Assembly: GCA_030682135.1 (NCBI GenBank)
Contig: JAUXQT010000015.1
Coordinates: 1-38,279 of the forward strand
Direction of reading: 5' to 3'
DNA length: 38,279 nt
DNA from: Nitrospirota bacterium
Lineage (GTDB): Bacteria > Nitrospirota > Nitrospiria > Nitrospirales > Nitrospiraceae
The translations under genes were made by a program, and so were the position numbers. Below the pieces are notes generated by a model that was not told the DNA's origin, made no database searches, and worked only from the letters and a program-made list of their open reading frames with translations. Shown here piece by piece: positions 9,396-28,607 of this stretch (position 1 is the first letter of the stretch; each line of letters starts with the position of its first letter).

Positions 9396-9404
9396 AATAA
9401 CCCC

Positions 9405-9490: not shown

Positions 9491-10136
9491 TCTTTTTATC
9501 GGCATCCAGAATGCTCTGGATGATCAACTTCAGATTCTCAGGATCGATCGTCTCCGCCTTGATATTTCCGTCGAGAAGCACGGTCGGGGTCTGCTGCACC
9601 TTGATGCGCTCGCCCCATTTGCGCCCCTCTTCGAAGATCTTGGCCGGTTTCCCGCTGGCCATGCCTTCTTCAAAGGCCTTCGGGTCGAGACCGACTTCCT
9701 TGATCAGCCCTTCCCGGAGCGAACGATCCAGCACGCCGGTCATCTTATCCTTGTGGATGGTGCGAAAGAGGACCGCTTTCATTTCACTCCCCTTCCCCAT
9801 CAGCTTCGCCTGCTCGTACATATCGAAAGGAGTCGGCAGCTTGCCATGAATCACCGGGAAGCCCACCATCGTCGCCTCAAGCTTGTTCCCGAACTCTTTT
9901 TGGAGGAGCGCCAGCCCTTCTCCGTCGAACCGGTGGCAATGAGGACAGTAGAAGTCGGCGAACTCGATCAACTTCACCTTGCCGGGAACATGCGTGGAGA
10001 CTTCGTCCTTCAAGATTTCGAACTTCCCCTTCAAGTCGGGAGTGGCGGCGGCGGCCGGTGAGCCCCCCAAACCTACGACACACCACACCATCGCGCATAC
10101 CGCCGAGGCCCATCGTGCACCCTGTCTGTTCACCAT
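9486..10136 (-). CDS. DsbA-like periplasmic thiol:disulfide oxidoreductase
   Basis: 216 residues with a signal peptide (about residues 1-31) and a thioredoxin fold whose active site is FYCPHCHRF (C64-P-H-C67), the CPHC typical of DsbA rather than CGPC. An inserted helical domain follows, and the cis-proline loop is QQTPTVLLDG. It would oxidise thiols of exported proteins or serve as a disulfide carrier. AAGGAGAGGGT precedes the ATG at 10136. It precedes the Cu+ ATPase on the same strand across a hairpin, so thiol protection during copper handling is a plausible role (inference). Confidence 0.9.
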   Translation of the reverse strand: MVNRQGARWASAVCAMVWCVVGLGGSPAAAATPDLKGKFEILKDEVSTHVPGKVKLIEFADFYCPHCHRFDGEGLALLQKEFGNKLEATMVGFPVIHGKLPTPFDMYEQAKLMGKGSEMKAVLFRTIHKDKMTGVLDRSLREGLIKEVGLDPKAFEEGMASGKPAKIFEEGRKWGERIKVQQTPTVLLDGNIKAETIDPENLKLIIQSILDADKKK

Positions 10137-11933: not shown

Positions 11934-12075
11934 CCAACGCCCTTCCTTGCGGCACCCGCAACAGTTCGGCAAACTATAGACGGGCAGCGACCGTGAAATC
12001 AACGACACCTATGCTCGAATCGACGTGAACGGAGTCCCCTGCAGTGAGTCTCGCGGACGAACAGCAAAACGGACA

Positions 12076-12110
12076 AAGGGTCTACTCTGTTCAGCACAGA
12101 GTAGACCCTT
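12076..12110. terminator. Strong stem-loop downstream of the cytochrome P460 gene
   Basis: A perfect 15-bp stem (12076-12090 with 12096-12110, AAGGGTCTACTCTGT) has a 5-base loop. It lies 30 bases past the stop codon of the minus-strand P460 gene. The minus strand continues TTTGTCCGTTTT, a broken U-run, which is consistent with a terminator. Confidence 0.7.
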
Positions 12111-12140
12111 CGCTCGACTGCTCGCTTATCTCAACAAAGC

Positions 12141-12705
12141 TCACATCCCCTTGCGGGTATCGAAATACTCATCGTAGCGATGCACGAAGTCTTTCTGCGC
12201 CAGCGGAGCATGGCAGGCCCGGCACTTGGTGAAGTCCTCGGCGAGGGATTTCCCATCAGCCCCGAAGGCTGAAAAGACCCAGGCGCCGTTCCGGAAATTC
12301 TCCGGCACATCCTGTCCCCAGCCATCCCCCTTGCCCATGACGAACACCTTGGCCAGGCTCCCCTTGACCAGCTTGCCATCTGCCCCGGTTACCGGAGTCT
12401 CGCCCTCAAGTTGCGCCTTATAGAGTTCCATCACCATCACCGTGCCGGAGGGGAACGCCTGGCCGCGCGGCGTCTTTGCACCGGCTGGATTGATATAGAG
12501 TTCACGAACCTGCTTGGCATCGGGACGCTGCACCTCGGAGAGGAACTTGGGCGAGCTCCCCGTCTTTCGGCTTCGGCGCCGAGGCCTTGGCCATGGACGA
12601 TGAACCGGCTCCGCCCTCCATCTCACTACACCCGGCCAGGGCCATCAGAACAATAGCTCCGATCCCGAACGTGATGATCTGTGTGATCTGTCGTGTTGTC
12701 TGCAT
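12141..12705 (-). pseudogene. Cytochrome P460 lipoprotein gene with a one-base frameshift
   Basis: The N-terminal frame gives MQTTRQITQ..., a lipoprotein signal with lipobox MALAGC, and a linker ending KPKDGEL. The C-terminal frame begins PKFLSEVQRPDAKQV and continues through FPSGTVMVMELYKA, VFVMGKGDGWGQ and the haem-binding CRACH to FVHRYDEYF. The two parts are in different frames. Removing one G from CTCGCCCAAG near 12550-12555 joins them as GELPKFLSEV, and the total length (565 bases) is one more than a multiple of three. P460 family members oxidise hydroxylamine and related N-oxides through a lysine-crosslinked c-type haem. The start ATG follows AAGGAGGG. Either a true pseudogene or a sequencing error; the intact product would be 187 residues. 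Confidence 0.85.
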
Positions 12706-12800
12706 AACCCTCCTTTTCAATGATCGGTCTTATAGCAACGCCCCGTCACCAGAAGATGAGCGGGGCGCTGCAGACTGCGGGAGGCTAACGCGAATCGCCG

Positions 12801-13280
12801 CTACTTGATCATGAGCAGCTTGCCGCCAGGATCCTTCGGATTGAGATGGTCGCGATAGACCAGCGTATTGCCCTGCGTCGCATAGAAGAGATCGCTGGTC
12901 GGGATGCCGATATATTTCGTCTCACCAGGCTTCAAGACCACCTGGGCCATCAAGACAAACGGCGAGCCGGCGTTGGCCGCATCCGTCATTTGGAACCCCC
13001 GCTCGACGGTGGAATTGTTCGTGACCTTGAGCAGCAGAGGCCGTCCAGGCCGAACCTTAAAATCGATCACCGTGGTCGGCGGATACCAGCTCTTGATCGT
13101 GCCGAGGTCGATAGCGAACAACTGCGCATCCACGTCGAGTGCTTTGAAGGCCTGGCCGACCACCGACCCGGTTTCCAGGTCGCCGATCTCCACGCCGCCG
13201 GCCTGTAGCGCGAATGCCGATGTGCCCATGACGAGCAGACTCACCGATACCAGGGTGCCCAGAACAAGATGCCTCAACAT
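12801..13280 (-). CDS. Exported protein, possibly cupredoxin-like fold
   Basis: 159 residues starting at an ATG with GAGGAGGTCAGGTC upstream. A signal peptide ends near SAFA. The mature domain has a beta-sandwich-like pattern (VIDFKVRPGRPLLLKVTNNS, ERGFQMTD, VVLKPGETKYIGIP) that resembles the cupredoxin-like domains of periplasmic metal proteins. However, there is no Cys or Met in the usual copper site and only one clear His (YRDHLNPK), so it would not be a type 1 copper protein. It lies between two P460-family genes on the same strand. The fold assignment is inference. Confidence 0.7.
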   Translation of the reverse strand: MLRHLVLGTLVSVSLLVMGTSAFALQAGGVEIGDLETGSVVGQAFKALDVDAQLFAIDLGTIKSWYPPTTVIDFKVRPGRPLLLKVTNNSTVERGFQMTDAANAGSPFVLMAQVVLKPGETKYIGIPTSDLFYATQGNTLVYRDHLNPKDPGGKLLMIK

Positions 13281-13299
13281 GACCTGACCTCCTCTATGG

Positions 13300-13641
13300 T
13301 TAAAGCGACGATGCATGAGTGCCGGATGATGGGAGACAGGGTGGCAAGCCCTTTTCTTCGAGCACTTGCCCCCCGATGAGTGTATCGCCGACGATCAGAA
13401 ACAGCGCCTTCACGCGTCTGGTGCTGTCGAGAAAGTTTCCGCTGGCCACGGCCGTCACTTCGTGCGAGCCATCCTCTTGCGCCAGGTCGGCCTCAATCGT
13501 CACATGGTAAAAATCGAATCCCTCGAATACGTTGTTGAACGCCTGCACGCGCAGGAGCGCCACAAGCTGAGGTTCATCGGCGAACGCCGGGGCCGTGCAG
13601 CACAAGAACATCACCGTTCCGAAGAGGTAGAGCAATCGCAT
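13300..13641 (-). CDS. Small exported protein of unknown function
   Basis: 113 residues. GAAGGAGTCGGCG precedes the ATG. A signal peptide ends at AFA. The mature part (EPQLVALLRVQAFNNVFEGFDFYHVTIEADL) is acidic with a C-terminal pair of small-residue segments (GLPPCLPSSGTHASS). It is the first gene after a promoter-like region at 13668-13705 and is followed 19 bases after its stop by the cupredoxin-like gene start, so the two form a unit. No family recognised. Confidence 0.7.
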   Translation of the reverse strand: MRLLYLFGTVMFLCCTAPAFADEPQLVALLRVQAFNNVFEGFDFYHVTIEADLAQEDGSHEVTAVASGNFLDSTRRVKALFLIVGDTLIGGQVLEEKGLPPCLPSSGTHASSL

Positions 13642-13667
13642 CGCCGACTCCTTCGATAGAGAGCGTT

Positions 13668-13705
13668 TCTATCCGCTTCTCGCCCAGGCGTCTACAGACG
13701 CCTGC
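13668..13705 (-). promoter_or_regulatory. Promoter/operator sharing a 16-mer with the site at 16108
   Basis: A perfect hairpin CAGGCGTCT-AC-AGACGCCTG (13685-13704) includes the 16-mer GTCTACAGACGCCTGC (13690-13705). The same 16-mer with one change occurs at 16108-16123 upstream of another gene of the island. On the minus strand TGTAGA and GATAGA (13668-13673) are spaced 17 bases apart. The matching placement suggests one regulator for both genes. Confidence 0.45.
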
Positions 13706-13732
13706 CAACTCGTACCAACACTTGCTACAGCG

Positions 13733-14359
13733 TCATGACGCCTGCGCGGTCCAAACGTCACGGCGTTCAAGAATATGGGAGAGGGAAACGTATGGGCATA
13801 CGTCTCCCTCCGTCGGGACTCCCTGCGTGGTCAGCGCAGTCCAACCCCTGAGTCCCGCCCCAATTGTGACACGAGCGCTGCGCGACGGCGCGGGCCTGAG
13901 CGCCCGCCCACGTCCCGGCGATGGCACGCCTGCCTGGACGTGAGTGGAAAAGAGCCACCCATCGATGGCACAAGACGGCAAACCGGACAACTCAAGGCTC
14001 GCATACTTTTGCATACTGAACACCTGCACCAGTTCATGACGGGCCGGCTGCCCGGCGCTCCCTTCATGGGAACGGTCCTCCTCGACACGATAGGTCTCCA
14101 TTACAAACCGCGTCCCCAGCGAAAAGGGCTCGTCATTCAGCGTCGCCGCTCCTTTGGGACAGACGTAACACTTCAGTATTTCCTCGTGGCCCTGCCGGTG
14201 CCCGGCAATCTGACAGGTCGGCCAAGACCGATAGCCGAAAGCCATCGACAACTGCCTATCTTCCGGTGCGGCCACAGACCTGGTGGTCACCCCCAAGGCA
14301 ATAGCCATCAGTCTGGCCACCACTGGTACGAGCTCGGGATAGTCCTGATCGTGATTCAT
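13733..14359 (-). CDS. Cytochrome P460-like protein with an abnormal C-terminus
   Basis: 208 residues from an ATG with GAGAGGGGGCGAG upstream. The first ~130 residues fit the P460 family: signal-like N-terminus, GYRSWPTCQIAGHRQGHEE, PFSLGTRFVMETYRVEED, ELVQVFSMQKYASLE and DGWLFSTH. The family CxxCH haem site should follow, but this frame instead reads a Pro/Arg-rich tail with no CxxCH. The underlying DNA is palindromic (13773-13810; GGGACT/AGTCCC at 13834-13870), and parts look like the conserved palindrome core in reverse. A frameshift or insertion of repeat DNA at the 3' end is likely. It may be non-functional as a cytochrome. Confidence 0.5.
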   Translation of the reverse strand: MNHDQDYPELVPVVARLMAIALGVTTRSVAAPEDRQLSMAFGYRSWPTCQIAGHRQGHEEILKCYVCPKGAATLNDEPFSLGTRFVMETYRVEEDRSHEGSAGQPARHELVQVFSMQKYASLELSGLPSCAIDGWLFSTHVQAGVPSPGRGRALRPAPSRSARVTIGAGLRGWTALTTQGVPTEGDVCPYVSLSHILERRDVWTAQAS

Positions 14360-14393
14360 CTCGCCCCCTCTCAATGTTGAGCCCCCCGAAGGG

Positions 14394-14429
14394 CCAGGGT
14401 GGGGGAGGCAGTCAACCGTCCCACCCTGG
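14394..14429. terminator. Stem-loop between the HTH gene and the P460-like gene
   Basis: CCAGGGTGGG (14394-14403) pairs perfectly with CCCACCCTGG (14420-14429). It lies after the stop of the minus-strand HTH gene (14492) and ahead of the next gene, with no U-run. It could be a terminator or attenuator. Confidence 0.45.
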
Positions 14430-14491
14430 TAACGGGTCCGCGAGATGGAGACCTCACCCCGCAGACGCCATATGCCTTCAGCCATCTATTG

Positions 14492-14770
14492 TCATCGCAG
14501 CGGCTTTTCTCCGCTGTTATCAGCGTTTCTTATTCGGGCCTGCGCGCGAACCGGCGCCACCTTACGGGGAATCGAACGAGTCACCGGTGTCGAATCCTTA
14601 CGATTGGCCTCGACCAGCGCCGTAACCGATTCGCGAAAGACGCGCAGGCTGCCATGTCCGATCTTGGTCGCACCGAGCCGTCCTTCTTCAATCCACCGAT
14701 AAATCGTCCACTTGCTCACGCGTAACAGTTGCGCCGCGTCGTTCACCCGCATCAACGATGATTCCATCAT
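14492..14770 (-). CDS. Excisionase/AlpA-type HTH DNA-binding protein
   Basis: About 92 residues. The core LMRVNDAAQLLRVSKWTIYRWIEEGRLGATKIGHGSLRVFRESV is a MerR-like winged HTH of the excisionase (HTH_17) type: first helix with AAxLL, recognition helix SKWTIYRWI, and the wing GRLGATKIG. Such small proteins act as excisionases or local transcription regulators. A close paralogue lies at 17380-17559, with the same LLRVN-AA, VS-WT-YRW, EG-L-ATKIG and SLRV positions. The C-terminus here has an extra basic tail. ATG at 14770 precedes a second in-frame ATG; a longer frame to 14803 is possible. Confidence 0.8.
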   Translation of the reverse strand: MMESSLMRVNDAAQLLRVSKWTIYRWIEEGRLGATKIGHGSLRVFRESVTALVEANRKDSTPVTRSIPRKVAPVRAQARIRNADNSGEKPLR

Positions 14771-14831
14771 GGCATCCCAAGCCCCGATCCACCGTCCATT
14801 CACATCCGCGCGCCACGTTCATACCATCCCG

Positions 14832-15134
14832 TCACTTCATGACCTCGCCCGTGCAATACCAGTTCTCGCCTTTCACACCATTGACGGCCGTAGCCAGTTG
14901 CTCCGGCTTCACCTTGCCCGATTCGACCGTCACCACCGCATGGCCTTTCATCCTCTTGAAATCGACCATCTTCACGCCGGGAACGCGCCGAAGCGCATGT
15001 TCGACATCGCCCACATATCCGTCGCAGAACTTGCCGCCCAGCATGAGTGTGATTGTTTCATCGCCCGCAAAGGCCGGGATGGCCATCGCACAGACACACC
15101 CGATGAGACAACCAAGCGTGATGAATGCCTTCAC
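14832..15134 (-). CDS. Exported heavy-metal-associated-like protein A
   Basis: 100 residues with a signal peptide (MKAFITLGCLIGCVCAMAIPAFAG). The mature part has the beta-alpha-beta-beta-alpha-beta layout of HMA domains: ITLMLGG, DVEHALRRVPGVKMVDFKRM, HAVVTVES, KPEQLATAVNGV. The usual MxCxxC loop is replaced by GGKFCDGY with a single Cys, and a second Cys lies near the end (WYC). Two cysteines far apart could still bring one metal ion or a disulfide together. The gene overlaps the preceding paralogue by four bases (ATGA), so the two are translationally coupled. Periplasmic metal chaperone is the likely role (inference). Confidence 0.75.
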   Translation of the reverse strand: MKAFITLGCLIGCVCAMAIPAFAGDETITLMLGGKFCDGYVGDVEHALRRVPGVKMVDFKRMKGHAVVTVESGKVKPEQLATAVNGVKGENWYCTGEVMK

Positions 15135-15508
15135 GATTTCCCCTCCTGTTGGCCAGCCTCAAGCCTCTGCGCTCCTCGGTCGATCCGCGCCGAGCAATTC
15201 CAGCCCGATGCGAGCGCGCGATGCACCGCACCGGCCAACTGCTCCGGCGTCTCGCTGCCGGGCTGATACCGCACCAGCACCGTGCCATGATCGTTCAAGA
15301 ACTCGACCTGCCGCACCGTCTTGAATGCACGAAGCGCCGCCTCGACATCTTCACGGTGGTACTCACACATGCGGCCAAAAATCTGGACGATGGCTTCACC
15401 TGCCGCCGTCTTGGTCTCCACGGATTCATTCTCCGGAGCCCCGGCTGCAAACGAAGCAGTCCCGATCATCGTCCAACAGGCCAATGCGCACATGAACAGA
15501 CGTCTCAT
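15131..15508 (-). CDS. Exported heavy-metal-associated-like protein B
   Basis: 125 residues, paralogous to the protein encoded directly downstream. Signal peptide MRRLFMCALACWTMIGTASFAAGA; then an HMA-like segment: AIVQIFGRMCEYHREDVEAA, VRQVEFLNDHGTVLVRY, TPEQLAGAVHRAL, ending SGWNC. As in its partner there is one Cys in the metal loop (RMCEYH, with a His three residues on) and a W-x-C at the end of the domain. The tail is charged (RIDRGAQRLEAGQQEGKS). Stop and next start overlap by four bases. A 200-base leader upstream contains a GC-rich stem-loop (15544-15582). Confidence 0.75.
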   Translation of the reverse strand: MRRLFMCALACWTMIGTASFAAGAPENESVETKTAAGEAIVQIFGRMCEYHREDVEAALRAFKTVRQVEFLNDHGTVLVRYQPGSETPEQLAGAVHRALASGWNCSARIDRGAQRLEAGQQEGKS

Positions 15509-15543
15509 GGCAGAGTCCTTTCAGAGCCAAACCGATTAAAGGA

Positions 15544-15582
15544 CCGGGGCGGAGGCCACAGGAGGAAGCACCCGCGCCCCGG
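15544..15582. other. GC-rich stem-loop in the leader of the HMA-like pair
   Basis: CCGGGGCG (15544-15551) pairs with CGCCCCGG (15575-15582). It lies 36 bases upstream of the start at 15508 in the 205-base gap after the His-rich gene. It may be part of a 5' leader or the end of the previous transcript; there is no U-run to decide. Confidence 0.35.
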
Positions 15583-15713
15583 ATCAGTCCGAGCAAGGAG
15601 GCCGCCCGACTCGAACATCGAGTAATCAACAACGGTCAAATGGTATAGACGAGCGACTGAGATCGATAAGGGAACGCGAGAGCAATCGACTTGAATAGAC
15701 CGCCCGGGATCCC

Positions 15714-16061
15714 CTATCCGATCAGGATGAAGGAAATCGCCGGAGGCGCACGGGAATGGAGCAGAGAAGAAGAGTGTACAGGGACAACGTGATTCGGAGA
15801 GGAGACGACGAGCTGGGCGACCGGACCGGCCGACAAGGCCGGCGGCTCCGTGACCAGTCCGGCATCGGACGTGGCCTGGCAGGCCCAGGCGCAGAGTGCA
15901 TTGTGCGGAGCCGCGTCTTGCGAACCATGGTGCGCATGGCCGCTGGAGACCTCGACGTGGCTGAACGAACAGGTCGCCGCCATCGCTGCAAGCGAGGCAT
16001 AGAGCAGGGCCACGAACCCTGCGACCAGAACGGAACTGCGTGATACACCGGAACGCGTCAT
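15714..16061 (-). CDS. LCxWxC/SRAPP family small envelope protein, copy 1 (DUF2946-like)
   Basis: 115 residues; ATG at 16061 follows GGAGAGCTTC. An N-terminal hydrophobic segment (SSVLVAGFVALLYASLAAMAA) is a signal or anchor. Then comes a histidine cluster (SSGHAHHGSQDAAPHNALCAWAC), a low-complexity stretch, and the C-terminal HSRAPPAISF. Two other genes in the window (20129-20437 and 24246-24551) share the same three blocks: signal, H-rich with LC-A/S-W-x-C, and SRAPP near the end. The pattern recalls DUF2946, small proteins often found beside copper TonB receptors, but I cannot confirm the assignment. His and Cys clusters suggest metal binding in the periplasm. Confidence 0.7.
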   Translation of the reverse strand: MTRSGVSRSSVLVAGFVALLYASLAAMAATCSFSHVEVSSGHAHHGSQDAAPHNALCAWACQATSDAGLVTEPPALSAGPVAQLVVSSPNHVVPVHSSSLLHSRAPPAISFILIG

Positions 16062-16083
16062 GAAGCTCTCCACGATGTCTCTT

Positions 16084-16123
16084 CTATACGCGTGAACCGA
16101 TCGCCTGTCTACCGACGCCTGCT
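16084..16123 (-). promoter_or_regulatory. Promoter with shared 16-mer upstream of the His-rich gene
   Basis: On the minus strand TAGACA (16107-16112) and TATAGA (16084-16089) are spaced exactly 17 bases, giving a good sigma70-like promoter with a leader of about 15 bases to the ATG at 16061. The -35 overlaps GTCTACCGACGCCTGC (16108-16123), which matches 15 of 16 bases of the site at 13690-13705. Confidence 0.55.
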
Positions 16124-16281
16124 CACGGATGCTACAAATCTTACAGTGGAACGGGGCGGTCTCGATCGCTACGGGCGGTGGGAATGTTGATGGAGGCCCC
16201 GTGTGAACTTCCGTTGAGAATGGTCGAGCGGGCTATAGGAAAAACTATTGGGCGTCGGCAGACTGTTTCATCACCTTGCCA

Positions 16282-16313
16282 ATACTGCCGGTGGGAAAAG
16301 CCACCGGCAGTAT
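16282..16313. terminator. Perfect stem-loop downstream of smbP
   Basis: A 13-bp perfect stem (16282-16294 with 16301-16313, ATACTGCCGGTGG) with a 6-base loop lies 20 bases past the smbP stop codon. There is no U-run on the minus strand, so termination efficiency is uncertain, but the position fits. Confidence 0.65.
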
Positions 16314-16332
16314 GAGGCTTAGGATCTGAACC

Positions 16333-16641
16333 CTACTTGCTCTTCTTCTTTCCTTCAGGCTTCTTGGCTGCCATCTCGGCATGAGCGATCGATTCTTCTG
16401 CGTGAATAATCGCTTCATTCGCATGTTGCAACGCCTCTTTGGCATGCGCATCGCCGGTTCCCTTGACGGCTTCCTCAATATGTTTGATCGCTTCTTTCGT
16501 ATGCGCGACCCCTTCCTTGGCATGCTTGATCACCTCCTGGGTATGATCCTCCCCCTTCCCCGCCAGCGAGACCGCCGGCTGCAGGCAGAGACCCAGTCCA
16601 AGTGCCGCTACTGCTATGACCGTCATCCATGTGTGCTTCAT
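16333..16641 (-). CDS. smbP: SmbP-like small histidine-rich metal-binding protein
   Basis: 102 residues: a signal peptide (MKHTWMTVIAVAALGLGLCLQPAVSLAG) and a mature part made almost wholly of amphipathic helical heptads with histidines at regular spacing (DHTQEVIKHAKEGVAH, TKEAIKHIEEAV, AKEALQHANEAIIHAEE). The tail is Lys-rich. This matches SmbP of Nitrosomonas europaea, a periplasmic four-helix protein that binds copper and other divalent metals. GGAG precedes the ATG at 16641 by 9 bases. Its place among TonB, ExbB and HMA-like genes supports periplasmic copper buffering. Confidence 0.85.
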   Translation of the reverse strand: MKHTWMTVIAVAALGLGLCLQPAVSLAGKGEDHTQEVIKHAKEGVAHTKEAIKHIEEAVKGTGDAHAKEALQHANEAIIHAEESIAHAEMAAKKPEGKKKSK

Positions 16642-16791
16642 AGGATATTTCTCCCCAGTTATAAATGAACTCTCTCGAACGATTCGACCACCTCGAATAC
16701 TCTCACGAGAAATTGAAGTCAAGCAGAGCCTGCTCACCGGCGACACAGAATACCGCGAGTCGGCCTGCATACTTGTGTGAGTGAATTCAGC

Positions 16792-17217
16792 TCACGATCC
16801 ATGCTGTGCCTTGTATAGTGCGAGGAGTTCGCTCACACGACGCCGAAGGACGTTGTTCATCACCACGCAAGGAATGGCGACCAGCAGCCCCGCCGCCGTG
16901 GCCTTGAGCGCGAGGCTCAAGCCGATCATGATCGAGGTCACCGCCATGGCGCCGGATGTGCCCATGGTGTGAAACGTCAGCATGATGCCGAGGACCGTCC
17001 CGAGCAATCCGATGTAGGGCGCATTGGCCGCCACGGTGCCGATCACCACCAGCCGCTTAGTCAGCATCATCTCGCAGAGATCCAGCGTGGGGAACTGCCG
17101 CACGTCCACCCGCCGATAAAACAGCCAGCGCTCCACCGCCACCCCGATGGCCCAGAGACTCAGCCCCAGTAAGAGCCCGATGACGCCGTACTCGACGAGT
17201 GCTTTGAGTCCTTCCAT
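16792..17217 (-). CDS. exbB: ExbB-type proton channel subunit (MotA/TolQ/ExbB family)
   Basis: 141 residues, shorter than E. coli ExbB and typical of the short ExbB form. Three membrane helices are visible: VIGLLLGLSLWAIGVAV; NAPYIGLLGTVLGIMLTF; and SLALKATAAGLLVAIPCVV. The family signature ANAPYIGLLGTVLGIM and the Thr/Ala-rich GLSLALKATAAGLLVAIP helix are intact. It would use proton motive force to energise TonB, which is encoded at 22653-23672 in the same island. The usual ExbD partner is not encoded anywhere in the window, so it must be supplied from elsewhere or be replaced. Confidence 0.9.
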   Translation of the reverse strand: MEGLKALVEYGVIGLLLGLSLWAIGVAVERWLFYRRVDVRQFPTLDLCEMMLTKRLVVIGTVAANAPYIGLLGTVLGIMLTFHTMGTSGAMAVTSIMIGLSLALKATAAGLLVAIPCVVMNNVLRRRVSELLALYKAQHGS

Positions 17218-17251
17218 GAAGACACCGCGGCCCTTCCTGCAACAGTTGTCC

Positions 17252-17321
17252 GTAATGACTCAAGTAGATAGGCTGAAGGCTGTTAGACTTCGGCCTTCAG
17301 CCTGAATACCTGAGTCGTTAC
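17252..17321. terminator. Long stem-loop between the small HTH gene and exbB
   Basis: GTAATGACTCAAGTA plus GGCTGAAGGC (17252-17280) pair with GCCTTCAGCC plus TACCTGAGTCGTTAC (17292-17321). The two stem segments of 10 and about 15 bp are separated by a 4-base internal loop. No U-run follows. It fills most of the gap and could terminate or process the mRNA ahead of exbB. Confidence 0.6.
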
Positions 17322-17379
17322 AGCTGTCCTTGATATTGTTTCTCGCTTCACGTCACCCTCACAGCTACGCTGCCGACGC

Positions 17380-17559
17380 TCAGTGATCGGTCCGATTCTC
17401 GGAGATCAGCTTGTCGACCGAGTTCCCGATCACGCGTAAGCTCTGCTTACCGATTTTTGTGGCGCTCAACTTCCCTTCATCGACCCATCGATAGACCGTC
17501 CAACGGCTTACGTTTAGAACTACCGCCGCTTCATTGACCCGCAGCAATGACTTGGTCAT
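17380..17559 (-). CDS. Small excisionase/AlpA-type HTH protein (59 aa)
   Basis: A short gene: ATG at 17559 with GAGGTGCAAG upstream, stop TGA at 17380-17382. The product begins MTKSLLRVNEAAVVLN and continues VSRWTVYRWVDEGKLSATKIG, then KQSLRVIGNSVDKLI. It is a minimal winged HTH of the excisionase class, paralogous to the protein at 14492-14770 but without its basic tail. It lies between the TonB-dependent receptor and exbB, so local control of this island is a reasonable guess. No integrase is nearby, which argues against a phage excisionase role. Confidence 0.82.
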   Translation of the reverse strand: MTKSLLRVNEAAVVLNVSRWTVYRWVDEGKLSATKIGKQSLRVIGNSVDKLISENRTDH

Positions 17560-17676
17560 CTTGCACCTCGCTTTGTGTCGTCATTTGACTCATCGCATTA
17601 TCCAAAGGCCCTGGGGAGGAGGACGCCTCAAAGAGGCCTCCTCTCAACTCAGGACCACTCTGCATATTCCGACAAA

Positions 17677-20007
17677 CTACCACAAGCCCATCGTCACCCC
17701 GGCATAGACGCCCCGTCCATTGCCGGGCAGAAAGGCCTGCTTGGTGGCGTCGGGCGTGCTGTCCGCTGTCGGCACCGCGTTGGCTACATAGGTCTTGTTG
17801 AGAATGTTATCCATCTCAACATAGAACTTGGCGAACCGGATGAAGCGATTGTTCGACGGCACATAGTTATAATTCAGATTTGCATTGAACAACAGGTAGG
17901 ACGGCGCGCCCAACGTGTTGTTGTTGTTCACCCAGAAGCTGTCGATCCAACTGCCCTCGACCCAGCCGCCGAGCCCTGAGGGCGCGTGGTTGTATGCTAA
18001 TTTGGTGTTCAATACGTTCTTTTCTACGGCTGGCACGTCGTGCCCTGCCTGATTGACCTTCGTAACCACGTTGTTAGCAGAAAACTGGTCGGTGAACTTG
18101 ACGTATTTGCTTTCCATATGGGTGAAGGCACCGGTCCAACTGAGCCCCGGCACAGGATCGGGCAGATATTTCCATGCCAACTCGATGCCGCGGTATTGCG
18201 ACTCGTCTGCATTGGTCGCAAAGCTGCCGTTCGTCGTGGCAGACAGAGGAACGCTCTGGTTGATGATTTCGTCTTTGAAGAAGATCCAGAATCCGACGAG
18301 TTCTACATTGAACTGTTTCGTCACCCAGGAATTGGTTCCGAGTTCGAGGTTGAGGTTCTTCTGCGGCTTCAAGTCAAGATTACTTCCGGGATTGCCATCC
18401 AATCCGGTGGTCAGGTTGCCAAGCCCTGGGATCGCGTAGCCCGTCGAGGCGCGGGTCCAGATACGCGTATCCTGATTGGGCCTAAACGTGAGGGAGAGCT
18501 CCGGCGCGAAGTTGTCGAACGTCCGATCCACATTGACCCGACTGGCAAAGGTGCTGGTGGTAGCCGTGGTGGTGTAGTTGGTCACGACACCGGAGATCCG
18601 CGAGTTTTCGTAGTTGAAGCCCAGGGCTGCTGTCCATTTCGGAACGAACTCCAACTCCTCACGGAACCGCGCACCGATATTTTTCTGGGTCAGTCTGGTT
18701 TGCTGCTGCAGCGGACCGAACGTCGCAGTTCGGTCGTTCTGATTACGATAACTTCCCCCCTCTTGCTCCATGTAGTCGAAGAAGAAACCAACCGTGCTCT
18801 TCAACGGCATGTTGAGCAACGATCCGTTATGGATGAGGTTCGAATAGTGTTTGAAGTTCGGATTGATGTTGGTGCTAACCGGTTGATTGATGTCCTTCAC
18901 ATCGTAGTCGCCTTCGATCTGGAGGATCGTATTGGCATCGATCTCCCGCTCGTACAGCCCGCCGACGATTGTCCGCCGATCCCGACGCTTGGAGTGCAGG
19001 GTTTCAGGATTGGTCGTGGCGTTCGTAATCCCGCCGAGCTGGCGCGGATTTTGGTTAAACTGGCTTTGCGTCAAGCGCCCAGGGCTTTTGGCGTCCACAT
19101 CGTTGTTGATCGCCTTGAAGTAGAAGCTCTGCCTGTCGTCGATACGGAATCGCAAGTTCAAATTGACGGTGGCCGTGTCGTACTCACTGTGAGGGAGAAA
19201 ACCGTCTTCCCGAATATAGCTGGCAAATAGCGACGCATCGAGGTTCTTGTAGGCCTTCCCGATCGCCACCGCATACTTCTGGTATCCCCAAGAACCGCCC
19301 GACACAAACGTTTCCACCCCATCAATATCGGCCCCACGCCGGGTCTTGAAATGTACCGCCCCTCCCAACGCATAATTGCCGTAGAGCGAAGACGAGGCCC
19401 CTCTCACCACCTCGGTGCTTTCCATAAACCATGGATCGTGGATATCTAATCGAGACAAGCCGTCCGATTGTGTCTGCCCGATGCCGTCTTCATAGAACTT
19501 CACGTCTCTCACACCAAATCCATTCTTGGTGCCTGAGCCTCGAATGGATACCTGGAAATCGCGCGGCCCATTGCGCTGTCGCACGATCACACCGGGAATC
19601 GATTCCATCGATTCCCGCATATTCCGAGTCGGCTGCGAATCCGTCTCGCTACGAGGGGTCGCCGAGAAGGCAATGCCCTCCGGGCGCTTGATGACTCGCT
19701 TGCTGATAATGCTCGTGTCGGCCAGCTCATATTCAGGAATGGCTCCGGTACCCTCAGATTCCTCAGGCGCGACTTTCTCCGTAACCACCTTGGGCCGTTC
19801 GCTTGGGGGCATGGCCCCCTCACGCGTTTTCTGAAGATCATCCAGCTCTTGGAGAATACCCTTCAGCTGCTCACGCAATTGCTCTTCACGTGGCGTAGCC
19901 GTCGGCTGTGCCGGCTCCTGTGCTGACACCACCTGATTCATCGCGGCAATGATTCCGAACACTGCGACTGACACAACGACGTGCCCGACTCCCTTGAACG
20001 ACACCAT
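17677..20007 (-). CDS. TonB-dependent outer-membrane receptor of the metal island
   Basis: 776 residues from an ATG preceded by AAGGAGTAAGGGCC. After a signal peptide (to about VVSAQ) comes a coiled-coil segment (REEQLREQLKGILQELDDLQK), a linker with YELADTSIISKRV, and the plug: QPTRNMRESMESIPGVIVRQ, DFQVSIRGSG, VKFYEDGIGQTQSDGLSRLDIHDP, EVVRGASSSLYGNYALGGAVHFKT. A 22-strand-type barrel follows and ends GVYAGVTMGLW with a terminal Trp. The coiled coil and plug start are shared with the truncated fragment at 22281-22628. Substrate is unknown; the neighbours point to copper. It requires TonB and ExbB, both encoded nearby. Confidence 0.92.
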   Translation of the reverse strand: MVSFKGVGHVVVSVAVFGIIAAMNQVVSAQEPAQPTATPREEQLREQLKGILQELDDLQKTREGAMPPSERPKVVTEKVAPEESEGTGAIPEYELADTSIISKRVIKRPEGIAFSATPRSETDSQPTRNMRESMESIPGVIVRQRNGPRDFQVSIRGSGTKNGFGVRDVKFYEDGIGQTQSDGLSRLDIHDPWFMESTEVVRGASSSLYGNYALGGAVHFKTRRGADIDGVETFVSGGSWGYQKYAVAIGKAYKNLDASLFASYIREDGFLPHSEYDTATVNLNLRFRIDDRQSFYFKAINNDVDAKSPGRLTQSQFNQNPRQLGGITNATTNPETLHSKRRDRRTIVGGLYEREIDANTILQIEGDYDVKDINQPVSTNINPNFKHYSNLIHNGSLLNMPLKSTVGFFFDYMEQEGGSYRNQNDRTATFGPLQQQTRLTQKNIGARFREELEFVPKWTAALGFNYENSRISGVVTNYTTTATTSTFASRVNVDRTFDNFAPELSLTFRPNQDTRIWTRASTGYAIPGLGNLTTGLDGNPGSNLDLKPQKNLNLELGTNSWVTKQFNVELVGFWIFFKDEIINQSVPLSATTNGSFATNADESQYRGIELAWKYLPDPVPGLSWTGAFTHMESKYVKFTDQFSANNVVTKVNQAGHDVPAVEKNVLNTKLAYNHAPSGLGGWVEGSWIDSFWVNNNNTLGAPSYLLFNANLNYNYVPSNNRFIRFAKFYVEMDNILNKTYVANAVPTADSTPDATKQAFLPGNGRGVYAGVTMGLW

Positions 20008-20128
20008 GGCCCTTACTCCTTCTTAGAATGAGAAATGACACCACTACCTCCGCACAGACAGAGGCCGCGCGATCTGCAGCCCTGTCAGTACAGGGAAGAT
20101 GACGAATGCACGATGCGTGGGTGAAACG

Positions 20129-20437
20129 TTATGAACGAGGAGGCGCGCGGGACTGCGCCGACTGCTGGAAGAGAAACGACGAGACGGACGTGGCGACCAA
20201 CAGCAGCATCGCGAGAAAGTGAAGCGGCTGCGTCTGTGGCGTGGTCGCTGGAAGATCGACGGTCGGATTGGCGTGGCAGGCCCAGGCACAGAGCGAAGAA
20301 TGCGTCACGCCGCCGGTGTGATGATGGGCCGAGCGGGGCTGGCTCTCGTGCGCAAAGAGACAGGCCACCGCGCTGACCGAGAGCGTCAGGTAGAGCGTGG
20401 CAATGGCCAGAGCCAACGGGACGAAGCACTTCCTCAT
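20129..20437 (-). CDS. LCxWxC/SRAPP family small envelope protein, copy 2
   Basis: 102 residues. The start ATG overlaps the TlpA gene stop (ATGA), so the two are translationally coupled. An N-terminal membrane segment (FVPLALAIATLYLTLSVSAVACLF) is followed by HESQPRSAHHHTGGVTHSSLCAWACHAN, a second hydrophobic helix (FLAMLLLVATSVSSFLF), and SAQSRAPPRS at the end. It shares the H-cluster, LCAWAC and SRAPP blocks with copies 1 and 3. The direct neighbour downstream is the TonB-dependent receptor, the arrangement expected if the small protein serves the receptor's substrate. Function unknown; metal binding is inferred from the His and Cys clusters. Confidence 0.7.
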   Translation of the reverse strand: MRKCFVPLALAIATLYLTLSVSAVACLFAHESQPRSAHHHTGGVTHSSLCAWACHANPTVDLPATTPQTQPLHFLAMLLLVATSVSSFLFQQSAQSRAPPRS

Positions 20438-20982
20438 TTCCCGCTCTCCATGACCTGCCGCATCACCGCCACTGCCTCCGGACCATCCCAGGCGCGAGGC
20501 CCGACCGCTCGCCCAACGAGCGTACCATCCCGCGCGATGACAATCGTGGTCGGGAGGCCTCGGACCATGAAGGAGCGTGACACTTCCTGATCTTCATCGA
20601 ACAGCACCGGCAAACTGACCCCTAACTGAGCAAGAAAGTGGGCGATGCCCTGGCGCTGTAGATCCGTGGTGACGGTCATGAGGATAAATTGCGCGGGATC
20701 CAACTGCTTTTGCAAACGGGCCAATGACGGCATTTCTTCTTTGCAGGGCCCGCACCAGGTGGCCCAAAAATTCACCAGCACGACCTTCCCTGCCAACTCG
20801 CTTGACTTCACAACCTTGCCATCCAGCGCCGTGAGTTCAAAAGGCGCGACCATGCTCCCGGCCGGCAACCGGCTCATCTTGAGCGAGACAAAGGGATCGC
20901 TGGCCAGCGCGGGGCCAGCCGAGATAACGCTCAAGAACAAGAGCGCCACCGCAATCGCCGTTCGTTGCAATGACGCTGACAC
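20434..20982 (-). CDS. TlpA-family periplasmic thioredoxin
   Basis: 182 residues from a GTG at 20982, one base after the TAA of the sialidase-like gene. Signal peptide (AIAVALLFLSVISAGPALAS), then a TlpA/ResA-type fold: PAGSMVAPFELTALDGK, VVLVNFWATWCGPCKEEMP (active-site C77-G-P-C80), FILMTVTTDLQRQGI, and the cis-proline loop VRGLPTTIVIARDG. Proteins of this class reduce disulfides in apocytochromes or copper-site proteins. Longer frames would overlap the upstream gene and lack the signal peptide. Coupling to the sialidase-like gene upstream and the His/Cys-rich gene downstream suggests its target is one of these Cys-rich proteins (inference). Confidence 0.92.
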   Translation of the reverse strand: MSASLQRTAIAVALLFLSVISAGPALASDPFVSLKMSRLPAGSMVAPFELTALDGKVVKSSELAGKVVLVNFWATWCGPCKEEMPSLARLQKQLDPAQFILMTVTTDLQRQGIAHFLAQLGVSLPVLFDEDQEVSRSFMVRGLPTTIVIARDGTLVGRAVGPRAWDGPEAVAVMRQVMESGK

Positions 20983-20983
20983 G

Positions 20984-22270
20984 TTATGGCTCCTGCCTCG
21001 CGACCACTTTGACGGCTGGTAGTTGTAGCGTTTGCACAACCATCCGATGGTTCGGCATGGCATGCTCCATCCAAGCCAGCGCCGCAAGCCCTTTCAAATT
21101 CATCGAGAGGGCTGGCGTCTGGCCTTTCTTCTCATTCAATTTCTGCGGCGCGCTGACTGTCTGTCCCCGATCGAGGGAGATGCTCATCACGACTTCACGC
21201 CGGACGGGCGATTGTTCTTCCCAGACGATGACGAGACGCCCTTCCGGATCGACCGCCATCTGCGGGTGATCGGGAAATGTTCCCTTGGACACGTTCAGTT
21301 TCTGTTTGGGTGAAAAACTGTCCCCGCGGTCGTCCGAGTAGGCGAGGAACACAGATGGGGTCTCGTCGACGCCCTCGGTGTACCAGACTACATAGAGCCG
21401 ACCGAGCCGATCCGTCCCGATCGAAGCGGGCCGATGCGGACAGCCGGGGAATACCCAGCGGTCCTGTCCCACAATCACCGGTGCCGTGAACGTCTGACCG
21501 CCGTCGGTGGAACGCGCAACAACCGTTTCGCGGAGATCGCCGGGAAGAATCTTGCGCCAGGCCACATAGAGCGTTCCGTCCGGTCCGGTCGTGAGAGAGG
21601 TCCGGCAACAGACACAGGTGTTCTCGTCCACTTTGAGGTTCTTCACAACGGTACGTCCGCGATCGGTCGAGCGCGTCACGAAGGTACCCGATTCCTTCTT
21701 GCCCTCCCGCCCATCGATCCAGGCCATATGCACCACGCCATCAGAAGAGACATGGATCGAATCGAAACTGTGGCCGATGACCTGTTCATCGTCATTGATG
21801 AGAATCGACGGCAGAAATGTCTTGCCGCCGTCCGTGGACCGGCTCAGCCTCAATTCATTCGAGAACGGTTTGTCCGCGGTCAGTTTCGGATGGGTCAAGG
21901 CCCAGGTCAGGAACACCTCGTCTCCGGCCACGGCCAACGCCGGCGCTTCCTGCCGCATGTAGGGTGCCTCGGTCGGCTGATTCACAGTAACCGAAGCCCC
22001 GATCGGTCCTTCCGGCTTCTCCGTTCTCGAATAGAACACCGTGCGTTTGTCCTTGTCCTCCTCCACCCAGGCCAGCGAGATACGGCCTTGCTCGTCGATC
22101 CTAACGGAAGGTCCGACCACCGCCCTGACCGGACGATCGGTCGTCAGTTTCGGACCGAACCGCAAAGTCTGTTCTGACTCGGCCAGCGCGAGCGACGTGA
22201 GCGAGACAGCGCCGATCGCAATCCCGACCATCCAGGCTAGTCTCTTAGTTCTGAGTTTTCGTTCGATCAT
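20984..22270 (-). CDS. Exported BNR/sialidase-like beta-propeller protein with CVCC motif
   Basis: 428 residues from an ATG at 22270 with GAGGTG upstream. Signal peptide (LAWMVGIAIGAVSLTSLALA), then a six-bladed-propeller-like sequence with repeated Asp boxes: SRSTDGGKTF, TRSTDRGRT, ARSTDGGQTF, YSDDRGDSF, SLDRGQT. Catalytic residues of true sialidases are not obvious. A distinctive cysteine cluster NTCVCCRTSL and a later PGCPHRPAS lie in the middle blades. Together with TlpA directly downstream and TonB nearby, a metal- or redox-related role is more likely than glycan cleavage (inference). Confidence 0.82.
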   Translation of the reverse strand: MIERKLRTKRLAWMVGIAIGAVSLTSLALAESEQTLRFGPKLTTDRPVRAVVGPSVRIDEQGRISLAWVEEDKDKRTVFYSRTEKPEGPIGASVTVNQPTEAPYMRQEAPALAVAGDEVFLTWALTHPKLTADKPFSNELRLSRSTDGGKTFLPSILINDDEQVIGHSFDSIHVSSDGVVHMAWIDGREGKKESGTFVTRSTDRGRTVVKNLKVDENTCVCCRTSLTTGPDGTLYVAWRKILPGDLRETVVARSTDGGQTFTAPVIVGQDRWVFPGCPHRPASIGTDRLGRLYVVWYTEGVDETPSVFLAYSDDRGDSFSPKQKLNVSKGTFPDHPQMAVDPEGRLVIVWEEQSPVRREVVMSISLDRGQTVSAPQKLNEKKGQTPALSMNLKGLAALAWMEHAMPNHRMVVQTLQLPAVKVVARQEP

Positions 22271-22280
22271 ATGGTGCACC

Positions 22281-22628
22281 TCACTTGGATCCACGAATGG
22301 ACAGGGACATGTCGCGCCCATTTGGACCTTGGCCTGCGCTCACCCCAGGCATCGACTCCATGGATTCCTTCATACTTCGCGTCGGTTGATCCGAGAGCTC
22401 ACTACGCGAAACAGTGGAGCGCGCCATCCCTTCCGGCTGCGAGCGGAGTTGGCGCAATTCCTGCTCCACCTTCGTGCGATCCCGCTGCAGGTCCTGGATT
22501 CGCGCCGCCCGTTCAGACTCGCTCAATGGCGGCTTCGTCTCATCGGCCCATCCCGGCGCGGCCACAGGGCCGAGAGCGCCAAGCACCACCGTCACCGCTA
22601 TGACCCTGAACATCTGAGTTGATGCCAT
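22281..22628 (-). pseudogene. Truncated TonB-dependent receptor: signal, coiled coil and plug start only
   Basis: 115 residues from an ATG preceded by GGGAGTCAGGTGT. Signal peptide, coiled coil (SESERAARIQDLQRDRTKVEQ), then RSELSDQPTRSMKESMESMPGV and DMSLSIRGSK followed at once by a stop. The receptor at 17677-20007 has RSETDSQPTRNMRESMESIPGV and DFQVSIRGSG in the same order and then carries on. The fragment thus ends exactly in the first plug strand. It keeps a ribosome-binding site and tight operon spacing to tonB upstream and the sialidase-like gene downstream (10-base gap), so it may be either a remnant or a retained short protein. Confidence 0.75.
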
Positions 22629-22652
22629 ACACCTGACTCCCGCCTCCACTCA

Positions 22653-23672
22653 CTATCCCCCGAGGCTATAGACCATCGGCACGAGGACCGCGACTTCCGC
22701 TGCACCGATCGTACTCGTCATATGCAGAGGACAGACCAACCGAAGGGCTTCCATCGCCGCGTTGTCGAGCGATTCGTAGCCGGAGCTTCTATGCACCTTT
22801 ACCTCCGACAGGTGGCCATCGGATCGAATGACTGCTCGCAGCACGACCTTCCCTTCCCAGCCATTCAAGCGCGCGGCACTGGGATAACGTTTAATTTCAG
22901 CCAGTCTCCGCCTCAGCGATTCGGCCAACCAGCCATAATCGGCTTTGACCGACGGAGTTGGACGAGTGGCCATCGCCACTTGCGGCGCCGACTCTCTCAC
23001 GACCGCCTCAGTAGGCTTTGCGTCGCTCACAGCGGCAGCCGCCGGCGCCAGGGAGGCCGGCATTTCGGGGTCGCGCGTCAGCGAAGCGGTCTCAATGGCG
23101 CGTGCTTCGGCAGGATGCGTTGACGGGACGGTTGTTGGCTCGGGCTGGCTCACGGTCTGTTGCACCGCTGCTGCGGTGATCGCCGGTTCAGTGCTTACTG
23201 CTTCATGGTGCACGACGGGGGCAATCGACTCGACGACGGCCTGCTGAGTCTGCTGCACCTCTGCCGGCTGTTGCTCCTTGATGGGGGTCACCGTCTCAGT
23301 CCTCGTTTGCACCGCCACGGTCTGTTGAATCGGCTGGCTCGTTTCGACCACCTGGCGGATCTCACGTTGCACCACCGGCGTCACCTCGCGAGCCTGCACG
23401 GCCTGCGTGACCATTTGGGGTTGCGCCGGGGCCGGAGCAGCCTGACGCGGAGTCGGCTTCGCAGGCTCCGGTGTTGGCTTCGCTTCAGCCTCACGCGATT
23501 CCTGTATCCGTTGTGGCTCAACCAAAGCCACGTCCCACTTGAAGGCTTCTTTCGGCACGACCGGTTTGACCTGAGCCATGAGCCCGAGGGCCAGGGTCAA
23601 TGCCAGGCCGTGAAAGAGCGCAGACACCACCCATCCCTGCACACGATACTGTCCGTCCGGATTGAGCGTCAC
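22653..23672 (-). CDS. tonB: TonB energy transducer
   Basis: 339 residues. The GTG start at 23672 overlaps the upstream stop by four bases (GTGA). An N-terminal membrane helix (VVSALFHGLALTLALGLMAQV) contains the His expected in TonB helices. A long Pro/Glu/Lys/Gln/Thr periplasmic spanner (VEPQRIQESREAEAKPTPEP...) reaches across the periplasm. The C-terminal domain has the TonB signature: LAEIKRYPSAARLNGWEGKVVLRAVI, DGHLSEVKVHRSSGYESLDNAAMEA. It would pass energy from ExbB (16792) to the receptor at 17677 and perhaps to the receptor at 2668. Confidence 0.93.
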   Translation of the reverse strand: MTLNPDGQYRVQGWVVSALFHGLALTLALGLMAQVKPVVPKEAFKWDVALVEPQRIQESREAEAKPTPEPAKPTPRQAAPAPAQPQMVTQAVQAREVTPVVQREIRQVVETSQPIQQTVAVQTRTETVTPIKEQQPAEVQQTQQAVVESIAPVVHHEAVSTEPAITAAAVQQTVSQPEPTTVPSTHPAEARAIETASLTRDPEMPASLAPAAAAVSDAKPTEAVVRESAPQVAMATRPTPSVKADYGWLAESLRRRLAEIKRYPSAARLNGWEGKVVLRAVIRSDGHLSEVKVHRSSGYESLDNAAMEALRLVCPLHMTSTIGAAEVAVLVPMVYSLGG

Positions 23673-24118
23673 TTGATCACCACCTTTGCGACCGACTTGG
23701 CCGGCACATCGGCCTGGCCGAAATCGGATTCGCCACGGAAGCTGCCCGGTATCGTCAGCACGAACTCACCGGTCTTGCCGTTCGCCAGCGTGACCAGCAC
23801 CGTGATCCCTTCACTGCCGGCCGGTTTGGTTTCGAGCTGCTTAATCTTGTCGAAAGGAATGTTATTGGTCGTGCTCCCGCGTTTAACCGGGAGATGCCGG
23901 AGCTCATGAGGAACGAAAGCGGTCTCGCTGACTTTTTCTTCCCAATAGAAAATAAGATTGCGGATTTCGGTATCGACCCCCTGCGCATCCGTGACCATCG
24001 CCGTGAAGGCTTTCTCCGCTTTGACCTGAGCGGTTGCTTCGCCAGTCAACGCTGCCAGAGATGAAAACACAAGGAGGAATGCCCCTATCCATCGAACTGA
24101 CGCCTGCCTGTGCCTCAT
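23669..24118 (-). CDS. Exported protein upstream of tonB, unknown function
   Basis: 149 residues with a signal peptide (to about GEATAQ). The mature part has KAFTAMVTDAQGVDTEIRNLIFYWEEK, then FDKIKQLETKPA and VLVTLANGKTGEFVLTIPG, a small beta-rich domain without Cys. The last bases overlap the tonB GTG start, so the genes are coupled and the product probably works with the TonB system. Upstream on the minus strand GCGGATAG (about 24157-24170) resembles the -10 region at 13668. No family recognised. Confidence 0.75.
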   Translation of the reverse strand: MRHRQASVRWIGAFLLVFSSLAALTGEATAQVKAEKAFTAMVTDAQGVDTEIRNLIFYWEEKVSETAFVPHELRHLPVKRGSTTNNIPFDKIKQLETKPAGSEGITVLVTLANGKTGEFVLTIPGSFRGESDFGQADVPAKSVAKVVIK

Positions 24119-24245
24119 TGAAGTACTCCCCTCAGTCTGATTCCACTCTAGAAGAATCGTCCCTATCCGCCTACCCTACAGCCCACTCAGTGGGTTGCAT
24201 AAGAGACGGAATGTGCCCGGTTGCGGGCCACATGAGCAACGAAAA

Positions 24246-24551
24246 CTATAGAGAGAACGATGGAGGAGCGCGGCTGGGAGAAGTCTGGCACAGCTCAATC
24301 GAGGGCTGCGCAGCATGGGGAAGCGTAAGGAATGCAATCGGACTGAGGTCGGCTTCAAACGGGACGACCGCACTATCGAGCACCGTCCCGGCAGCGCACA
24401 TCCAGGAGCAAAGCACCGTGCCATGCGTGGCAGCCTGATGATGGGCATGGTGTCCGGCATGCTCGACCGACTGCGCCTGGGCCAATCCGCCGACGGACAG
24501 GACCGAGAACACGAGAAGGATCGACACATATTTGAGAACGGTGTGGTTCAT
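24246..24551 (-). CDS. LCxWxC/SRAPP family small envelope protein, copy 3
   Basis: 101 residues. Signal peptide MNHTVLKYVSILLVFSVLSVGGLAQAQ, then a dense His cluster (VEHAGHHAHHQAATH), the motif VLCSWMCAAG, a hydrophobic middle, and TSPSRAPPSF near the C-terminus. It shares block order with copies 1 and 2; this copy is the most His-rich (seven His in 15 residues) and has Ser-Trp-Met in place of Ala-Trp-Ala between the cysteines. It is the first gene of the minus-strand island, diverging from secA. A periplasmic copper-binding role is the best guess. Confidence 0.7.
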   Translation of the reverse strand: MNHTVLKYVSILLVFSVLSVGGLAQAQSVEHAGHHAHHQAATHGTVLCSWMCAAGTVLDSAVVPFEADLSPIAFLTLPHAAQPSIELCQTSPSRAPPSFSL

Positions 24552-24644
24552 CGTATAAAGACCGAGTGATTTGATCGAATGCTAATGGAGATTCGCTAGA
24601 CCTGTCAAGCCGACAACTCGACACCTGAGCCTCTGCTGATTGGA

Positions 24645-28548: not shown

Positions 28549-28607
28549 ACACACTCCTTGAATGCACATTATTATGCGGACAGACTCCCTGAAGTGCAAG
28601 GTAGAAG

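Follow-up and report, generated by a model that had tools for sequence, protein, structure and literature searches.

In Bordetella, the product of a small upstream open reading frame (uORF), CruR, has a CXXC motif, a spacing of 45 residues and an RAPP motif three residues from its end, and is followed by a 162-nt gap and a Rho-dependent terminator (PMC9426467). The presence of copper represses bfrG, which encodes a TonB-dependent transporter, and CruR-type genes are reported to be systematically the first in their operons (PMC9426467); arrest of CruR at RAPP has been shown in vitro (PMC12992588). CutF has a CxxxC motif, also with a spacing of 45 residues, and here copper strengthens stalling and turns the genes ON (PMC9973294). 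More broadly, uORFs ending in RAPP or RGPP are reported to precede TonB-related, copper-related and thioredoxin genes across many phyla (PMC12992588). We found three small ORFs that look like uORFs of this kind in a minus-strand gene cluster (24551→12141) of a 38,279-nt stretch of DNA, here called the window, from a Nitrospirota bacterium of the Nitrospiraceae (assembly GCA_030682135.1, contig JAUXQT010000015.1, positions 1 to 38,279). An initial annotation had described the cluster as an island for metal acquisition through TonB, most probably of copper; this is supported by inference and synteny, while its SRAPP-containing small proteins are recast here as regulators. The parts appear ordinary and the layout unusual, likely representing a copper-acquisition island controlled by serial CruR/CutF-like arrest peptides. 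The three uORFs are:

24246..24551 (-): uORF1, 101 aa, CSWMC, 41 aa, then RAPP; heads the island; putative copper-sensing arrest peptide
20129..20437 (-): uORF2, 102 aa, CAWAC, 42 aa, then RAPP; start codon on the tlpA stop (ATGA)
15714..16073 (-): uORF3, 119 aa, CAWAC, 42 aa, then RAPP; weak DUF2946 match (PF11162, 17.1 bits, cut-off 23.7)

These uORFs share an export-like N-terminus, a His-rich stretch, CxWxC and then RAPP near the C-terminus (RAPP or RGPP in relatives), followed by 4, 2 and 8 residues, respectively. In this genome, a profile built from the three matched only its own members plus a single copy that is more distant. The family was found in 31 of 32 genomes of the genus, with up to 11 copies each, and in 110 of 295 genomes sampled from the phylum, all but one of them within the window's class. 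In an alignment of 49 members, in which N-termini are hydrophobic, H38, C50, C54, R97, P99 and P100 were invariant and W52 was kept in >90%. CxxxC was present in 116 of 132 distinct Nitrospirota uORFs, mostly as CAWAC, CSWMC or CSWLC, and the distance from CxxxC to RxPP in the 116 uORFs with both motifs was 41 (n=55), 42 (n=60) or 43 (n=1) residues. The ratios of non-synonymous to synonymous rates (dN/dS), 0.18 for uORF1 and 0.30 for uORF2, indicate purifying selection. At SRAPP, codons change and amino acids are nearly fixed (proportion of non-synonymous differences, pN, 0.00-0.02; of synonymous differences, pS, about 0.38), and the linker drifts in sequence (pN 0.16-0.31; pN/pS up to 0.6). 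Fixed spacing, a constant SRAPP and a drifting linker suggest a nascent chain kept at a constant spacing relative to the peptidyl-transferase centre, and this pattern of conservation would not be expected of a free metal-binding protein.

Weak DUF2946 matches were found for 20 of 49 uORFs (best E 5.5e-4), and the SRAPP ORFs look like weak relatives of this family, under the Pfam cut-off and with CxxxC replacing CXXC. They resemble CruR (Bordetella pertussis cruR-bfrG and crtA-bp2921; PMC9426467, PMC12914433) as small export-like ORFs ahead of a TonB-dependent receptor, with a Cys pair, a fixed spacing, RAPP near the C-terminus, a long trailing gap, a rut-like stretch with more C than G (C>G bubble) and a metal-homeostasis context. 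Unlike CruR, they carry CxWxC rather than CXXC at a spacing of 41-42 rather than 45, score below the DUF2946 cut-off and are often internal and in series, in the window within a cluster that has TonB, ExbB, a propeller protein and TlpA and lacks a following PepSY_TM gene; some comparable islands of relatives have one (locus L037 18507-19595, by sequence; one uORF neighbour). With CutF (Rhodobacter capsulatus cutFOG; PMC9973294) they share the CxxxC sensor, the C-terminal proline motif and the export-like N-terminus. The features used to define CutF-like genes were also found, i.e., CxxxC plus a proline motif within the 15 C-terminal residues, a length of <150 aa (all three overall, at 101-119 aa, and two of three core lengths) and a same-strand gene within 1000 nt. 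However, there is no downstream multicopper oxidase, the motif is RAPP/RGPP, the gap is longer and the predicted folding that could hide the Shine-Dalgarno (SD) sequence is weak. The Nitrospira uORFs combine CxxxC as in CutF with RAPP and a C-rich stretch as in CruR. The C-terminal RAPP/RGPP of a small exported ORF upstream of the regulated gene is shared with arrest peptides in general (SecM, ApdA, ApdP; PMC10951233, PMC10987492, PMC12992588), but the metal-ligand motif at a set distance is not, and the survey of that class describes no chains of uORFs in one cluster (PMC12992588). Because the SRAPP ORFs match copper-responsive RAPP arrest-peptide uORFs (CruR, CutF and the RAPP/RGPP class; PMC9426467, PMC9973294, PMC12992588), they are most likely cis-acting regulators and not the metal-carrying envelope proteins they had been taken for. 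The set of genes had also been described as no nameable system; it can now be named in part, as its SRAPP members resemble CruR/CutF-type uORFs.

Several variants of these small ORFs were seen in passing. A fourth family member (locus L053 7721-8053, G000:C10), with CQWVQHH in place of CxWxC, lies 83 nt ahead of an 811-aa TonB-dependent receptor; single CQWVQHH-like copies occur in many genus genomes and perhaps respond to another metal. Another RAPP-ending small ORF (L034 16009-16341, L048 18066-18440; CNEIC, spacing 54, without the His stretch) directly precedes siderophore-type TonB-dependent receptors, and RGPP-ending small ORFs with xWAC (L037 15571-15978 and 19829-20227, L109 1796-2194) are found near TonB-dependent receptors and a PepSY_TM-like protein.

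The genes lying between and behind the uORFs, all on the minus strand as initially annotated, are:

23669..24118 (-): 149-aa exported-looking ORF, 127 nt past uORF1; no Pfam match; orthologues in some relatives
22653..23672 (-): TonB (PF03544, E 1.8e-14)
22281..22649 (-): half-plug protein, 122 aa (Plug, E 2.9e-7), ending SIRGSK
20984..22270 (-): sialidase-like beta-propeller (BNR) with CVCC; C219, C221, C222, C277 and H279 invariant
20434..20982 (-): TlpA-like thiol-disulfide oxidoreductase (WCGPC; Redoxin/AhpC-TSA), GTG start at 20982
17677..20007 (-): TonB-dependent receptor (PF00593/PF07715), 121 nt past uORF2
16792..17217 (-): ExbB, short form (PF01618, E 6e-26)
16333..16641 (-): small His-rich protein resembling the metal-binding SmbP, start probably ATG 16641; weak match (PF16785, 21.0 bits, below the cut-off of 29)
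15131..15508 (-): HMA-like protein 1, exported, without CXXC, 205 nt past uORF3 (PF00403, 21.2 bits, below cut-off)
14832..15134 (-): HMA-like protein 2, exported, with a single loop Cys (PF00403, E 3.9e-7)

uORF1 is the first gene of its operon, uORF3 probably is, and uORF2 is internal. The gaps past uORF1, uORF2 and uORF3 are 127, 121 and 205 nt, and most other junctions are packed. The stop-start overlaps initially noted at 23669 (149-aa ORF/TonB, GTGA), 20434 (TlpA/uORF2, ATGA) and 15131 (HMA1/HMA2, GTGA) proved exact, and the short gaps measure 10 nt between the half-plug and propeller genes (22271-22280) and 1 nt between the propeller and TlpA genes (20983). The -4 overlap of uORF2 with the tlpA stop recurs in most relatives. 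Internal uORFs, starting -60 to 30 nt from the preceding gene, account for 47 of 132; the preceding gene is TlpA-like in 38, with an exact ATGA in 20. Locus L094 has seven family members on one strand within 20 kb, and L125 alternates uORF, TlpA, uORF, outer-membrane protein, uORF and 545-aa-type protein, each uORF being preceded by 4-13 nt and followed by 55-104 nt. Among the genes downstream of uORFs (n=98) were 33 encoding TonB-dependent receptors, 11 TonB, six TlpA-type proteins and four P460; further neighbours encode outer-membrane proteins, HMA, SmbP, PepSY_TM and CobW. While the sensor type is already known, the stringing of several along one cluster, some of them within operons, appears to be new.

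Conserved synteny, which had been set as a test of the island, was found: the same gene order recurs across many Nitrospira, and the island is therefore not a chance assembly. With the propeller as bait, the order in relatives runs from the divergent secA through uORF1, a module of a 375-aa outer-membrane protein, a second TlpA and a second uORF1 (absent from the window), in some the 149-aa protein, and TonB, continuing with the half-plug (in some), propeller, TlpA, uORF2, TonB-dependent receptor, HTH_17, ExbB and, after further genes, uORF3 and the HMA-like protein. A propeller match was found in 16 of 32 genus genomes, one match covering a short stretch only. Named relatives place the window's genome with Nitrospira, and the ammonia monooxygenase (AMO) gene amoA is absent from it, indicating a canonical, nitrite-oxidising rather than a comammox Nitrospira. 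A link of the island to ammonia oxidation was rejected, given AMO in 6 of the 16 propeller genomes and 6 AMO genomes without the propeller.

Signs of Rho control were sought as C-G excess in 78-nt windows over the last 180 nt of each uORF plus 100 nt. The C>G bubble had a median of 25.6% for uORFs and 10.3% for 439 other ORFs, likewise taken at their ends (Mann-Whitney 7e-48), a shift that partly follows from Ser/Leu/Pro codons in sequences that are not independent, but that is nonetheless large. The window's three uORFs, with C-rich, G-poor 3' parts, fall at the 90th-97th percentile of the controls, and a Rho gene is present in the genome. The first RAPP proline is encoded by CCT in 96 of 132 uORFs (e.g., 20129-20437 in the window), as compared to background values of 14% for prolines and 25% for Pro-Pro pairs, and to 21% for the remaining prolines of the uORFs themselves, a bias whose p-values are inflated by shared descent; the second RAPP proline has no comparable bias and other nearby third positions vary freely. 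Either the P-site codon matters for arrest, or the resulting CCUCC pairs with the SD sequence.

We consider it probable that this is a copper acquisition island under serial nascent-chain copper sensors, where copper, the direction of the response and stalling itself are what we infer, and the best reading of the layout is that copper shuts off the import genes stepwise. By analogy with CruR and other RAPP work, at low copper the ribosome would stall at the Pro-Pro of RAPP and cover the C-rich stretch, so that Rho could not terminate and the next block would be expressed. The blocks gated would be TonB, half-plug, propeller and TlpA by uORF1, the receptor by uORF2 and the HMA-like pair by uORF3. 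Copper would bind CxWxC as it emerges from the ribosome tunnel, the resulting folding would pull on the chain and end stalling, and with the ribosome gone transcription would halt before the next block. Since uORF2 starts on the tlpA stop, its translation may be coupled to that of tlpA and form a second gate in the same transcript, so that the receptor would be gated twice. The TonB-dependent receptor, TonB and ExbB, together with an ExbD encoded elsewhere, would carry a copper complex into the periplasm, where TlpA, the propeller and the HMA-like and SmbP proteins would reduce, hold or pass on the metal. No ExbD gene was found within the island, leaving the energiser set TonB-ExbB-ExbD incomplete locally, and three are present elsewhere in the genome.

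Control as in CutF, in which copper would strengthen stalling, open a stem-loop hiding the SD sequence and turn the blocks ON, would make the island one of copper handling or detoxification. This improbable alternative draws on the CxxxC motif itself (PMC9973294), on single-sequence folding and RNAalifold, both of which, for the uORF2 gap, pair the RAPP codons with the SD sequence and the start codon of the receptor gene, and on the CCT bias, which yields an anti-SD sequence. Yet the genes gated encode TonB and TonB-dependent receptors, i.e., import, and the gaps of 121-205 nt exceed those of CutF-like genes, mostly <100 nt. Moreover, predicted folding of the three gaps is weak (z -1.2, -2.2, -0.8), the RAPP:SD pairs in the gap between uORF2 and the receptor gene hardly vary, so that covariation is uninformative, and RAPP was the best anti-SD site for the next gene in only 12% of 43 cases, so that pairing is retained as a lead for uORF2 only. 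A sensor of the same kind for another thiophilic or His-liking metal, such as nickel, cobalt or zinc, seems slightly less probable still: His-only CutF-like proteins accompany Ni/Co transporters (PMC9973294) and a CobW gene follows one of the Nitrospira uORFs, but CxxxC members accompany copper genes (PMC9973294), the CruR response is copper-specific (PMC9426467), and a Cu+-ATPase and a DsbA gene adjoin the island here and in L033, L045 and L046.

That the SRAPP ORFs encode secreted metal-binding proteins for storage or as chaperones, as their His-rich stretch, CxWxC and export-like N-terminus could suggest, is very unlikely, as the linker varies in length by no more than one residue, conservation is highest at RAPP, which would be of no use in binding a metal, and every uORF is trailed by a long gap although the cluster is packed elsewhere; CruR, moreover, was not detected as a protein and showed no action in trans (PMC9426467). 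We give least weight to import of pyrroloquinoline quinone (PQQ), which would make this a cofactor uptake island. Among solved structures, the receptor has relatives only in PqqU/YncD, its closest matches (9c4o, 6v81; E 2.4e-55 by profile and 9e-38 by single sequence), but the PqqU signature Y/F/W99, R304 and R365 (PMC12124388) corresponds to F164, Y368 and G417, leaving two of three residues unmatched, Y368 is invariant among 17 relatives, and the score of 172 bits compares to an NCBIfam cut-off of 1200.

Several points weigh against stepwise repression of copper import by serial sensors. The CxxxC motif is that of CutF, which turns genes ON with copper, so the direction could be the opposite; in-operon placement as for uORF2 is without tested precedent; and the metal is deduced from the sensor family and the neighbouring genes. 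PF11162 (DUF2946) exceeded 23.7 bits in none of 32 genus genomes (best 21.1), and the C>G bubble depends in part on codon content, as noted above. In addition, the HMA-like proteins lack the usual CXXC, which makes metal binding by both uncertain, and the receptor lacks a conserved Cys and has a PQQ importer as its closest solved relative. It does keep two His (in 17/17 and 16/17 relatives), a parallel to, and not a test of, the CrtA copper receptors, which are described as sharing just two conserved His (PMC12914433).

Nitrification is constrained by the availability of copper, which also influences which nitrifiers prevail. Recent work on copper import in Nitrospira covers PcoB/CopB only, found almost solely in comammox strains (PMC13374858), and the island represents a candidate outer-membrane copper importer for both comammox and canonical Nitrospira. 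It would also extend copper-responsive arrest peptides to serial, in-operon use and offer a natural set-up for studying how nascent chains sense a metal while their spacing to the stalled codon is constant.

The half-plug protein had initially been called a truncated receptor. It consists of a signal-like segment, a coiled-coil-like segment and the first half of a TonB-dependent receptor plug, and a pseudogene was rejected, since orthologues in seven genomes share the SIRGSK end at a dN/dS of 0.26, which points to a separate, conserved small protein rather than a recently broken gene; some close relatives nevertheless carry it in reduced form or not at all, and in L044 a relative sits elsewhere, before an HMA block. 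A role as TonB decoy or receptor partner is a guess. A bolder and rather doubtful version of the proposal would have a ladder of up to seven copper sensors, several in-transcript and tlpA-coupled, shut the importer stepwise, and would have the half-plug, secreted and bound to TonB, tune it as a decoy or regulator. The Cys/His set of the propeller, kept down to about 36% identity, is a possible metal or disulfide site; the structure model (pLDDT 87) resembles propellers of the sialidase-like and lectin types (12-17% identity), which implies no function, and no close solved homologue was found. The model of the 149-aa protein from its single sequence (pLDDT 41) was too poor and was not used.

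The receptor in the window shares 83% identity with its L047 counterpart but only 50-57% with those of the other relatives, although the neighbouring propeller is 82-93% identical, which suggests that the locus exchanges two alleles of the receptor. In L043 (12170-14532) two ORFs that meet at an ATGA-like junction make up the receptor, owing to a frameshift or an assembly error.

The island is bordered by a divergent secA (24726) on the uORF1 side, with a promoter-like site upstream and a strong intrinsic terminator downstream. Its remaining features, and the neighbouring genes beyond the terminator, are:

24579..24608 (-): sigma-70-like promoter, TTGACA-18-TAGCAT, 10/12 matches, ending 27 nt ahead of uORF1
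17380..17559 (-): 59-aa HTH_17/excisionase-like ORF; relatives also have HTH_17 genes here
14492..14803 (-): HTH_17 DNA-binding protein (PF12728, E 9.8e-12)
13733..14485 (-): cytochrome P460-like ORF without CxxCH (PF16694, 27.8 bits), possibly degenerate
13300..13641 (-): 113-aa ORF, no assigned family; kept next to SmbP in L044
12801..13316 (-): 171-aa exported-looking ORF, no assigned family; kept in L044
12141..12626 (-): cytochrome P460 with a CRACH haem motif (PF16694, E 6.8e-24)
12073..12113 (-): strong intrinsic terminator, 18-pair stem
9486..10136 (-): DsbA-like protein, beyond the terminator
6858..9482 (-): YHS-type P1B Cu+-ATPase

Chance alone would give 4.1 promoter matches in the region, where two were found, and this promoter is therefore supported by its position only. 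The two HTH_17 genes were absent from the initial annotation. The DsbA-like gene probably shares the physiology of the island. A long inverted repeat (AGGCTGAAGGC...GCCTTCAGCCT; 17266-17310) was spotted by eye between the small HTH ORF and exbB, and past secA (27899-28665) lies a possible toxin-antitoxin pair, judged from translation only, of a PIN-like protein with a small ORF resembling an antitoxin.

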